Assembly: GCA_030705945.1 (NCBI GenBank)
Contig: JAUZPS010000002.1
Coordinates: 1 to 35,139, forward strand
DNA length: 35,139 nucleotides
Source of the DNA: Bacillota bacterium
GTDB lineage: Bacteria > Bacillota > Clostridia > Acetivibrionales > DSM-2933
Direction: 5' to 3'
Position numbers and translations under genes: made by a program. Under the pieces are notes generated by a model, which worked only from the letters and a program-made list of their open reading frames with translations, was not told the DNA's origin and did no database searches. This document shows, piece by piece, positions 3,347 to 35,139 of this stretch (position 1 is its first letter; every line of letters begins with the position of its first letter).

Positions 3347-5836
3347 TTATCTTAATAACTGGAGAACACCTTGAGGTTGTTGGTTGGCTTGAGCCATCAT
3401 TGATTGAGCAGCCTGTGAAAGAATGTTGTTCTTTGTGAACTCCATCATTTCTTTTGCCATATCAACATCACGGATACGTGATTCAGCAGCTGTCAGGTTT
3501 TCAGATGATGTTCCAAGGTTATTGATAGTGTGTTCCAATCTGTTCTGGTAAGCGCCAAGTTGTGATCTTTGAGCTGAAACAGACTGTATGGCATTATCCA
3601 GAACCTTGATTGCAGCTGTAGATGATTCATGGGTAGATACATCCAATGCGAATTCATTTGCATCGTTGTCAGTTCCGTTGGTAACATTCTTTACAGCTGT
3701 AAATTTAGCTCCTTCAACACCGCCTGCTGTTGCGCCAGCTTGAGTGCCTGAAATCTCCAAGGCTTGAGAACGCATATCTTTAATATCCATCTGGAAGCTC
3801 TGGCCCATATTTGCGCCGATCTGCAATTTAGCTGAGAATGTGCCGCCTGAAACACTTGCAGGAGTCAAACCAGCTTGCTCTGTCTTAAATGAGAAGGATG
3901 ATGTATCGCCAGGCGCAAATTTTGTTGGATCTGTATCAAATGCGCCTATATCAACAACAGCTTCACCAATACCATCGCTTGATGATAATTTAACGCCCTG
4001 TTGTCCTGATTTGACTGTAACAGCTGCACCAGCAGTAGCGCTTCCTGCTTCAGTTAAGGATGCTGTATAATGGTTTGAGTCAACTGTAAATTGCGCAAAG
4101 TCTGTGGTTGCAGCAAAATTGTTAGCTACATAACCTGCTCCAACAGTTACAGTTAAATCACCGAATGTCATTGCTGAACCCGCAGTTAGACCTGTTAATT
4201 GTTTAGCTCCGGCTTGATCATAACCAGTAACTGCCGCAAAGGTTCCATCTGACTGCATCATCTGCAATTCAGCTTCATCATTGGTACCTGTGCCGACCAA
4301 TCTATAAGTACCAGATTGTAATGTGCTTGATCCATTATTAAAAGATACTGTTACATCACCTGCTGCAACGTTACCACCAACTCCAGTAGCTGTTCCATCC
4401 ATTGTAGCTGATGCTGCAACGTTGGTGATTATAACTTTCTGTTCACCATCAGAAAGACCTTTTGCAGATGTTACGCCAGCGCCTGGTAATTTTGTATTAC
4501 CATATACTTCATCAACTTTAACATTAGCGTTGTTGCCCATAACTATTGAGTTACCAGCGCCACCGCCTGTTGACGCAGTGATTAACAATTTTGAAGTATC
4601 GGTTTTAGATAATAACACATTTGCCAAAGCGCTGTTATTAGCGCCGTAATTGGTTGCGGTTGTTGCTGAAGAAACCGCGTTACCGGATGTGCCTGCCATT
4701 GAAGTAACAATAGCATCGACTATTTTTTCTGATGTTCTTGCTCCGTTTAAGTCAATTGCAAAATCAGCTGATCCGGAATACTTTCCGTTTGCGCTGTCAA
4801 AGAAATCAATTTTCTTACCGTCTACGACTATTCCAGATCCAATAAGATCACTAGCTTTTGAATTTGAGAAATCTATTGTATTCTGAGCGTTAGAATTTGC
4901 CGCAGCTGTGTTTGCAGGCACACCAATATTAATTGTGCCGCCAACAGTACCGCTCGCAGCGCTTGCAACTCCTCCATCGGCAACGCCTGTAAGGACTCCT
5001 TTTGCTGATAATGATGGAGCGGTAGCTTGTATTGTTACTGCGGCTGCGCCATTATCTGTTGCTGTATAGTTACCCTTTAAATCATCATGGTTTGCTATAT
5101 AGCTGCTTACCTGACTGGATATATCCTTAGCAACATTAGCAGCGCTTTCAGCGCCTGTTGTTTTAAGTGTGATTACATCACCTGAAACATTACTTGCTGC
5201 AGCAGTAGAATCGTACTGAACTTTTATAGTATGACTTCCAAGAGTTAAACTAAAATTCTTACCATCATCATTAGAAGCAGTTGCGTTTACAGCTGCGCCT
5301 ACAGTAAATACTGTTTTTGCTGGTGTTATTGCGCCCGTTGCGCCTGATCCACCCAACAGTGTTGCGGGAACAGTCAATCCGTTGCCTGATACCCCTTTTG
5401 TAGCCGTAGCAGCATTTCCGCCGCCGTTTAATAACTTCTGAGTGTTGAACTCTGTAGTATTACCGATTCTGTTTATTTCAGAAGTAAGCTGATTGATTTC
5501 CTTCTGTATTTCACCACGGTCTGTATCAGTGTTTGTACCGTTGGCAGATTGTGTCGCAAGTTCTTTCATTCTCTGAAGGATGCTGTGAGTTTCATTCAAA
5601 GCGCCTTCAGCCGTCTGAATCATTGAAATACCATCCTGAGCATTTCTTCCTGCCTGGTCGAGACCACGGATCTGACCTCTCATCTTTTCACTGATAGCCA
5701 AGCCTGCCGCATCATCGCCTGCGCGGTTGATACGCATACCTGATGACAATTTTTCCAAAGATTTTTGTGAATTTACGCCATTAGATTCCAATTGGCGATA
5801 GGTATTTAACGCTGCAATATTGTGATTGATTCTCAT
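3347..5836 (-). CDS. hag: Flagellin (large, ~829 aa, with expanded central variable region)
   Basis: [21 protein letters not shown]-terminus and ...[26 protein letters not shown]-terminus. The 862-aa track ORF starts too early; the ATG at 5836 has an AAGGAGGAG SD. Confidence 0.95.
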
Positions 5837-5842
5837 AAAAAA

Positions 5843-5876
5843 CTCCTCCTTGATTTGTTTTAGGGAATCCTTTCCC
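5843..5876 (-). promoter_or_regulatory. Predicted CsrA-binding leader of flagellin mRNA (AGGA-loop hairpin plus SD GGA)
   Basis: Minus strand GGGAA-AGGA-TTCCC hairpin (5863-5876), then AAGGAGGAG SD (5843-5851) before ATG 5836. Confidence 0.65.
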
Positions 5877-5897
5877 CAAGTTAATAGTTTTGTTATT

Positions 5898-6001
5898 ATA
5901 TTAAAAGTGATTAATCTTTTACATTTGCCTATCACAAAATAATGTTAAAGCATTCGTTATTTTGATTTGTCAAATGTAAGATTAATAGCGCCTTTAATTT
6001 A
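5898..6001 (+). repeat. Palindromic family 1, diverged copy E, in the flagellin leader
   Basis: attaaaagtgattaatcttttacatttgcctatcacaaaataatgttaaagcattcgttattttgatttgtcaaatgtaagattaatagcgcctttaat; same architecture as copies A-D. Confidence 0.85.
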
Positions 6002-7670: not shown

Positions 7671-7775
7671 TATATAAAAAGCAATTAATCTTTTACATTT
7701 GCCTATCGCAAAATAACGTTAAAGCGTTCGTTATTTTGCTCCGTCAAATGTAAGATTAATAGTGCTTTTTATATA
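7671..7775 (+). repeat. Palindromic family 1, copy A (105 bp)
   Basis: tatataaaaagcaattaatcttttacatttgcctatcgcaaaataacgttaaagcgttcgttattttgctccgtcaaatgtaagattaatagtgctttttatata; arms are near-perfect inverted repeats. Confidence 0.97.
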
Positions 7776-20421: not shown

Positions 20422-20461
20422 TTATATGTAAATCTATATAATTATATGTAAATCTATATAA
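20422..20461. repeat. Perfect 20-bp tandem repeat x2 abutting palindromic family 2 copy
   Basis: ttatatgtaaatctatataa at 20422-20441 and 20442-20461. Confidence 0.95.
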
Positions 20462-20561
20462 GTTTCGAAAAAGATTTTACATTAAAAATGCAGTTAATGC
20501 GTCTGCATTTTACCATCAAAGCTGTACTTTTCGCAGCTTATGAATCAAAGTATATATTTTG
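20460..20561 (+). repeat. Palindromic family 2, copy 2a (~102 bp)
   Basis: aagtttcgaaaaagattttacattaaaaatgcagttaatgcgtctgcatttt...cttttcgcagcttatgaatcaaagtatatattttg; high identity to 34977-35077. Confidence 0.9.
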
Positions 20562-20573
20562 TTTTTTTGATGC

Positions 20574-20678
20574 TATATAAAAAGCAATTAATCTTTTACA
20601 TTTGCCTATCGCAAAATAACGTTAAAGCGTTCGTTATTTTGCTCCGTCAAATGTAAGATTAATAGTGCTTTTTATATA
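20574..20678 (+). repeat. Palindromic family 1, copy B (105 bp, identical to copy A)
   Basis: Direct comparison: no differences from 7671-7775. Confidence 0.97.
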
Positions 20679-21364: not shown

Positions 21365-22558
21365 TTATATAATCTCTGCCTCTCTTTTTAATATATCAGC
21401 CTTATCTGTCTTTTCCCATGATAATTCAACATCAGTACGTCCAAAATGACCATACGCTGCTGTCTGCTTGTAAATTGGTCTTCTTAATTCCAGTGTCTTT
21501 ATTATACCTGCAGGTCTTAAATCAAAGTTCTTTTGAACTAACCTAACAAGCTTATCCTCAGAAATTTTACCGGTTCCGAAAGTATCAACCAAAATAGATA
21601 CCGGCCGAGCTACTCCGATTGCGTAAGCCAGCTGTACTTCACATCTTTTTGCCAATCCCGCAGCTACGATATTTTTAGCGACATACCTTGCTGCATAAGC
21701 TGCTGAACGGTCAACTTTTGTCGGATCTTTGCCTGAGAAAGCTCCGCCTCCATGTCTTGCATATCCTCCATATGTGTCAACAATGATCTTTCTTCCTGTC
21801 AATCCTGAATCTCCTTGAGGTCCCCCAACTACAAATCTTCCCGTAGGGTTAATAAGAATTTTTGTATTTGAGTCAATCAATTCAGCAGGTATAGTGGGCT
21901 TAATTACTAGTTCAATTAAGTCTTTTTCGATTGTATCATGGTCTACATCAGCGCTGTGCTGAGTAGAAATTACTATTGTATCAACTCTTACCGGCCTATT
22001 GTCTTCATACTCGACAGTAACCTGTGATTTTCCATCAGGTCTTAGATATTTTACTTTGCCTGCTTTTCTTATATCAGTCAGTTTCTTTACAAGTTTATGC
22101 GCCAGCGAGATCGGCATCGGCATGAGCTCTGGCGTCTCGTCGCAAGCAAAACCGAACATCATGCCCTGGTCGCCTGCGCCAATGGCTTCTATTTCTGCAT
22201 CGGTCATTTCACCTTTCTTTGCTTCTAGAGCCTTATTTACACCCATGGCAATATCAGGCGACTGCTCGTCTATTGAAGTGATGACGGAGCATGTATCACA
22301 GTCAAAACCATATTTTGCTCTGTCATAACCAATTTCTCTTATGGTATTTCTTACGATGCGAGGTATATCAACATAACAATTAGTTGTAATTTCACCCATT
22401 ACAAGCACTAATCCCGTTGTTACGGCAGTCTCGCAGGCTACCCTTGCATTTGGATCCTTTTCAAATATTGCATCCAGCACTGAATCAGATATCTGATCGC
22501 AAATTTTATCTGGATGCCCCTCTGTTACTGATTCTGAAGTAAATAATATTCTTCCCAT
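21365..22558 (-). CDS. metK: S-adenosylmethionine synthetase
   Basis: 397 aa; [37 protein letters not shown]. Confidence 0.98.
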
Positions 22559-22610: not shown

Positions 22611-22715
22611 TAGATAAAAAGCAATTAATCTTTTACATTTGCCTATCACAAAATAACGTTAAAGCATTCGTTATTTTGCTCCGTCAAATGTAAGATTAAT
22701 AGTGCTTTTTATATA
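22611..22715 (+). repeat. Palindromic family 1, copy C
   Basis: Three substitutions relative to copy A (tatata>tagata, atcgc>atcac, gcgttcg>gcattcg). Confidence 0.96.
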
Positions 22716-22747
22716 GATTAGATCTTTTCTGTCGTTCCCAAGGAGTA

Positions 22748-22897
22748 CAAAAAAACCCCTTCAAAAGAAGAGGTTAAACATACGCTTTCCTCATCTTTCA
22801 GAATATTTGCAAATATTCTGCAGGAATTGGCACCGATACAATAAGCCGGTTGCCGGGTTTCATAGGGCTCAGTCCCTCCACCTCTCTTGATAAGGTC
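22748..22897 (-). ncRNA. SAM-I (S-box) riboswitch with terminator, upstream of metK
   Basis: Minus strand cttatcaagagaggtggagggactgagccctatgaaacccggcaaccggc...ggtgccaattcctgc...gaaagatgag, then aacctcttcttttgaaggggtttttttg terminator. Confidence 0.96.
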
Positions 22898-28609: not shown

Positions 28610-28681
28610 GGGAGTTCCAAAAAATTCCTTGTTCAAGTTTTGTATGATAAAAACCCATTATATCAAGTTTTTGAAACTCCC
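28610..28681. other. Inverted repeat between rplI and dnaB
   Basis: gggagttccaaaaa ... tttttgaaactccc, 14-bp outer arms with one mismatch. Confidence 0.6.
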
Positions 28682-28720
28682 AGTTGACCAATTTATTTTT
28701 TGATACTACCTAATCTGATC

Positions 28721-34855: not shown

Positions 34856-34960
34856 TATATAAAAAGCAATTAATCTTTTACATTTGCCTATCGCAAAATA
34901 ACGTTACAGCGTTCGTTATTTTGCTCCGTCAAATGTAAGATTAATAGTGCTTTTTATATA
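34856..34960 (+). repeat. Palindromic family 1, copy D
   Basis: One substitution relative to copy A (gttaaag>gttacag). Confidence 0.97.
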
Positions 34961-34961
34961 T

Positions 34962-34987
34962 ATAAGTTACGAAAATAAGTTACGAAA
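34962..34987. repeat. 13-bp tandem duplication at the left end of family 2 copy 2b
   Basis: ataagttacgaaa at 34962-34974 and 34975-34987. Confidence 0.9.
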
Positions 34988-35077
34988 AAATTTTACATTA
35001 AAAATGCAGTTAATGTGTCTGCATTTTTCTATCAAAGATGAACTTTTCGTAACCTATGAAGCAATGTATATATTTTG
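34977..35077 (+). repeat. Palindromic family 2, copy 2b
   Basis: aagttacgaaaaaattttacattaaaaatgcagttaatgtgtctgcatttttctatcaaagatgaacttttcgtaacctatgaagcaatgtatatattttg. Confidence 0.9.
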
Positions 35078-35139
35078 CAATATAAAAAATATATTTAAAA
35101 TGTTTATCACGAAACATCTATAAAATTAGTTTTATGCTA

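Follow-up and report, generated by a model that had tools for sequence, protein, structure and literature searches.

The repeat unit of pneumococcus (RUP) is a 107-bp element for which IS630-Spn1 is the probable mobilizer in trans (PMC2229807, PMC3049150), and RUP, ERIC, Correia and the Rickettsia palindromic elements (RPE) all end in TA, duplicate their target and form long stem-loops (PMC2229807). ERIC reaches 711 copies in Photorhabdus (PMC10969869), and the several families of RPE are palindromes of 105–146 bp (PMC2229807). We analysed a 35,139-nucleotide stretch of a Bacillota genome (contig JAUZPS010000002.1; hereafter the window) that holds six copies of a palindromic repeat, R1 (Table 1). 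R1 and RUP have in common their length, intergenic position, TA-containing target, IS630-like tips (for R1, in a sister genus) and near-identical copies; unlike RUP, R1 is one palindrome over nearly its whole length, lives in an unrelated host, numbers ~400 copies and has a partner that was not found in its own assembly. With ERIC and Correia (NEMIS) elements it has in common a terminal TA on both sides, target duplication, long stem-loop transcripts and the capacity for hundreds of copies, but it belongs to another host group and combines a fixed core with changing tips, the sequence comparison with these elements being through Rfam only. RPE are palindromes of similar length; they often lie inside genes, whereas 86 of 87 recent R1 copies lie between genes. 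REP/RAYT elements and PATE, the latter derived from IS200/IS605, are likewise imperfect palindromes of intergenic DNA, but R1 duplicates a TA target and a genome with dozens of copies gave no Y1 match. On comparisons that covered Rfam, phages and plasmids, R1 is apparently a new and unnamed family of a kind already known.

Copies, insertion sites and spread of R1

The first-pass annotation of the window had described four full copies of the repeat (A–D), a diverged copy (E) and a half copy (F). The sequence identities among A–D are as it gave them, and E is indeed diverged, with 85% identity over the repeat unit; F had been misread, and is a full-length, degenerate copy in the opposite orientation with a small insertion and the ends TATTAAAAGTG / TGATTTTAATA. 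The element proper is TATAAAAAGC...GCTTTTTATA, 101 bp long, and the TA flanking it left and right is the duplicated target. With terminal inverted repeats, no coding capacity and a length below 300 bp, R1 has the size and structure of a MITE. As far as can be told, all six copies are intergenic, as had been claimed. Copy E overlaps a GTG-started ORF (3347–5935) by ~37 bases; the flagellin domain of this ORF starts at residue 36, so that the true start probably lies inside the ORF. Copy C separates metK from a SAM riboswitch, lengthening the metK leader (22611–22896), and the decayed copy F lies directly downstream of a c-di-GMP-I riboswitch (1482–1783). The host MetK has its relatives among Clostridia and Bacilli.

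Table 1. Positions of R1 copies and other features in the window
Feature	Position	Strand	Remarks
Copy A	7671–7775 (element 7673–7773; TA duplication 7671–7672 / 7774–7775)	+	many identical copies elsewhere in the genome
Copy B	20574–20678	+	0 differences from A; upstream of recD2-like gene
Copy C	22611–22715	+	3 changes; TAGA flanks left and right
Copy D	34856–34960	+	single change, in loop
Copy E	5898–6001	+	older subfamily, tips TATTAAAAGTG
Copy F	~1482–1594	−	full-length, decayed, old; earlier given as 1542–1597
metK	21365–22558	−	
SAM riboswitch	22788–22896	−	
R2	28610–28710		
R3	20458–20541; 34975–35057		
R4	35069–35107		

Where R1 has inserted into another repeat (R2), filled and empty sites can be compared directly: GATAC-TA-[element]-TA-CCT stands against GATACTACCT, and further junction pairs agree that TA is duplicated. 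At 52 targets outside repeats, C occupies position −1 in 48% (10% background) and G position +3 in 44% (9% background), which gives (C)TA(G) and then A or T as the target. A preference for CTAG is a trait of IS630. The 86 recent copies that lie outside ORFs do so despite 81% coding sequence, in calls that rest on plain ORFs; the strands are evenly used (43/44), and placement between tandem, divergent and convergent genes is close to that of intergenic TA. We infer that selection eliminates genic insertions, which would leave copies between genes.

The left junction has a polarity of its own. About one fifth of junctions have a longer TANA match instead of TA, and one copy is flanked by CAGA on both sides. 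At TANA sites where N is not T, the N of the target appears at the left end in 20 of 28 cases, against 2 of 46 where the fourth base is not A (P = 9 × 10−10); the mirror-image test of the right end gave 0 of 22. All of these counts hinge on how copies were defined by regular expression. That TAGA left ends are heritable tips was considered and rejected, as TAAA, TACA and CAGA left ends match their own right flanks too. Target bases are thus often found on the left and not on the right, a polarity that standard TA transposition does not predict.

Across the 5.11-Mb genome of the host (G000; 789 contigs), an exact core pattern matched 391 times (196 forward, 195 reverse) and a reversed control pattern 0 times. 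In a 769-kb sample of this genome, 87 full copies match copy A at 96% identity or more and a further 34 are older, a density not to be extrapolated because the contigs were partly chosen for holding copies; ~100 near-identical copies were examined with their flanks. Among sampled copies, the median identity to the nearest neighbour is 1.0 in the host genome, 0.91 and 0.93 in the same-genus genomes G001 and G002, and 0.98 in G003, of a sister genus. Bursts are recent in G000 and G003; G001 and G002 hold only older copies, with one exception in G001, where a copy is 99% identical to copy A, a match that makes interspecies exchange or recent movement likely. We searched 58 genomes of the order with a covariance model based on 13 representatives; R1 was found in G000–G004 and once in G054, which belongs to another family. 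Both G001 and G002 preserve the 35 kb of the window in synteny, without any of its six R1 copies. Recent mobility, which had been offered beside homogenisation to account for the near-identity of the window copies, is therefore borne out by the burst and by orthologous sites without copies, and R1 is polymorphic between species.

Plasmid and phage collections yielded no match to R1. Viral contigs gave 14 matches to an 18-base degenerate core, and BLAST with the element set returned only two 21-base identities, which we took as chance. ORFs between close R1 pairs have no constant size or arrangement. Loci in the host genome include a recent copy nested in an old copy, as well as copies with internal deletions (C46:22191–22366, L208:6965–7030, C1:1561–1635), and three loci in G001 (L337, L320 and L348) carry head-to-tail arrays, with full copies after a right-end fragment.

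The hairpin and its fixed core

The one long hairpin proposed in the first-pass annotation is far stronger than the folds of shuffled sequences, both as RNA (−37.6 kcal/mol, z = −9.3, no shuffle as good) and as DNA (−28.9, z = −9.4). In an alignment of R1 copies, pairing holds in 89.7% of cells and both partners have changed in 13 pairs; the covariation score was reached by no shuffle and lost when the partner was slid. These values are supportive rather than independent, as the structure was taken from the fold of copy A itself and the 13 rows were picked by hand. RNAalifold found no structure in 63 unedited copies, and the 13 chosen representatives were used instead.

Change is concentrated away from the centre of the element. 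In the outer stem, 11 of 27 pairs differ on both sides with pairing kept, and the palindrome tips differ between subfamilies yet remain complementary; most invariant columns, unpaired ones included, fall within the core, and an asymmetric internal loop is kept across genera. The core of a MITE is usually less conserved than its tips, and R1 across species shows the reverse. In several copies, one arm has been overwritten with the reverse complement of its partner, which shows that arm-to-arm correction happens and can yield covariation without selection for structure.

Candidate mobilisers

A search for IS630 transposases (DDE_3) in six genomes gave matches above the cut-off in G002, G003 and G004. 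The IS630 of G003, a genome that also carries near-identical R1 copies, is ~1.22 kb long, has two uninterrupted ORFs in different frames and the terminal sequence TATAGATAACGAA; its transposase halves match NF033545 IS630 (NCBIfam) and Pfam DDE_3. Three R1 copies in G003 start with TATAGATAACGC, 11 bases of which are identical to the first 11 of this resident IS630, in the left arm only. Other R1 copies in G003 read TAGATGATGC, and the R1 tips of G000–G002 have only 4 bases in common with that IS630 tip. A full-length IS with the ends of R1, the partner envisaged in the first-pass annotation, was thus found in the sister genus to the extent of these 11 bases and not in the host assembly. A second short sequence in G003 (L071 near 1239, reverse complement) begins with a more complete match to the IS630 tip (TAGATAACGAAGTGTAAA) and ends in the inverse of that start; it is possibly an IS630-derived MITE.

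The host assembly gave no IS630 match by the DDE or the HTH half, despite the recent activity of R1 there, in a search that is possibly incomplete, as part of the assembly is withheld as N and four sampled small contigs end in N; the HTH half was also without a match in G001 and G002. G001, a complete genome whose R1 copies are mostly old, has no IS630 match above the cut-off. In G004, the same type of IS ends five contigs at one place, which indicates that short-read assemblies lose the element, so that its absence from the host assembly is not decisive. No high-copy repeat of IS length was found in the 769-kb sample, where the few long matches are two-copy and diverged, and 137 sampled contig ends have only known repeats in common, a sample that a low-copy IS would escape. 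The IS630 and Y1 loci of relatives hold no whole R1 copy.

We consider it likely that R1 is a palindromic, non-autonomous MITE moved in trans by an IS630-type transposase. An IS630 (Tc1/mariner-like) transposase encoded elsewhere would recognize the tips of this 101-bp, non-coding element and insert it at TA, preferably in CTAG followed by A/T-rich sequence, with duplication of the TA. A recent burst has raised the host genome to ~400 near-identical copies, with older or independent bursts in relatives, and tip sequences vary by subfamily as if tracking whichever IS630 is at hand. For the host genome itself, IS630 is the inferred mobilizer. The comparison with MITEs and PATE in the first-pass annotation holds in its first part, given the target duplication, the filled and empty sites and the IS630 tip of the sister genus, and fails in its second, given the TA duplication and the lack of a Y1 match in G001.

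A different reading is that a structure-reading system (HUH/REP-like, attC-like, or RNA with a reverse transcriptase) acts on a folded single strand and recognizes the core. The constancy of the core and internal loop across genera, the paired changes of the outer stem, the uptake of target bases at the left junction, the reverse transcriptase genes in 6 of 6 genomes tested and the head-to-tail and partial arrays of G001 would all accord with it; we nevertheless regard it as unlikely, because TA duplication and CTAG targets indicate IS630, arm-to-arm correction in a quasi-palindrome can account for the covariation, and G004 has reverse transcriptases yet one R1 copy. Y1 transposases had no match in G001 (complete, with dozens of R1 copies) or G054, and the one Y1 match in G000 has a 2.8-kb locus without an R1 copy. 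We are similarly doubtful of a combined version, in which the asymmetric core would itself have a function, its folded strand being read while the element is copied, and the outer stem would be swapped for the tips of the IS630 present, its arms kept complementary by arm-to-arm correction.

Mobilization by another transposase family, such as IS3, IS256 or IS110, is improbable. Our searches covered IS630, Y1, DDE_Tnp_1 and RVT_1; the last three yielded no candidate better than IS630, the ends of three multi-copy DDE_Tnp_1 elements of G001 were compared with those of R1 and differ, and TA duplication in CTAG together with the common tip favours IS630. Least plausible of all is the mobile regulatory RNA hairpin of the first-pass annotation, a chromosomal element spread and kept for regulating or terminating neighbouring transcripts: the hairpin is very stable and copies C and F lie downstream of riboswitches, but copies in tandem gene pairs have no strand bias (23 in the same orientation, 16 opposite), gene arrangement around them is near the intergenic TA background, no Rfam covariance model matched at its gathering score, and relatives are without copies at the same places.

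Other repeats and significance

Three more short repeat families occur in the window (R2, R3 and R4; Table 1), at 124, 67 and 56 places, respectively, in the 769-kb sample; none was found in the tested stretches of relatives. R3 and R4 each fold into a hairpin and have the motif TTTTACAT in common with R1.

With R1, the palindromic MITEs gain a family that has been very active in recent times, whose subfamilies extend over one bacterial family and for which a sister genus offers a candidate helper. The combination of changing tips and a fixed core would serve as a natural data set for studying how non-autonomous elements track their helpers, and whether an element alters a regulated leader could be tested on insertions such as copy C, downstream of the SAM riboswitch in the metK leader.
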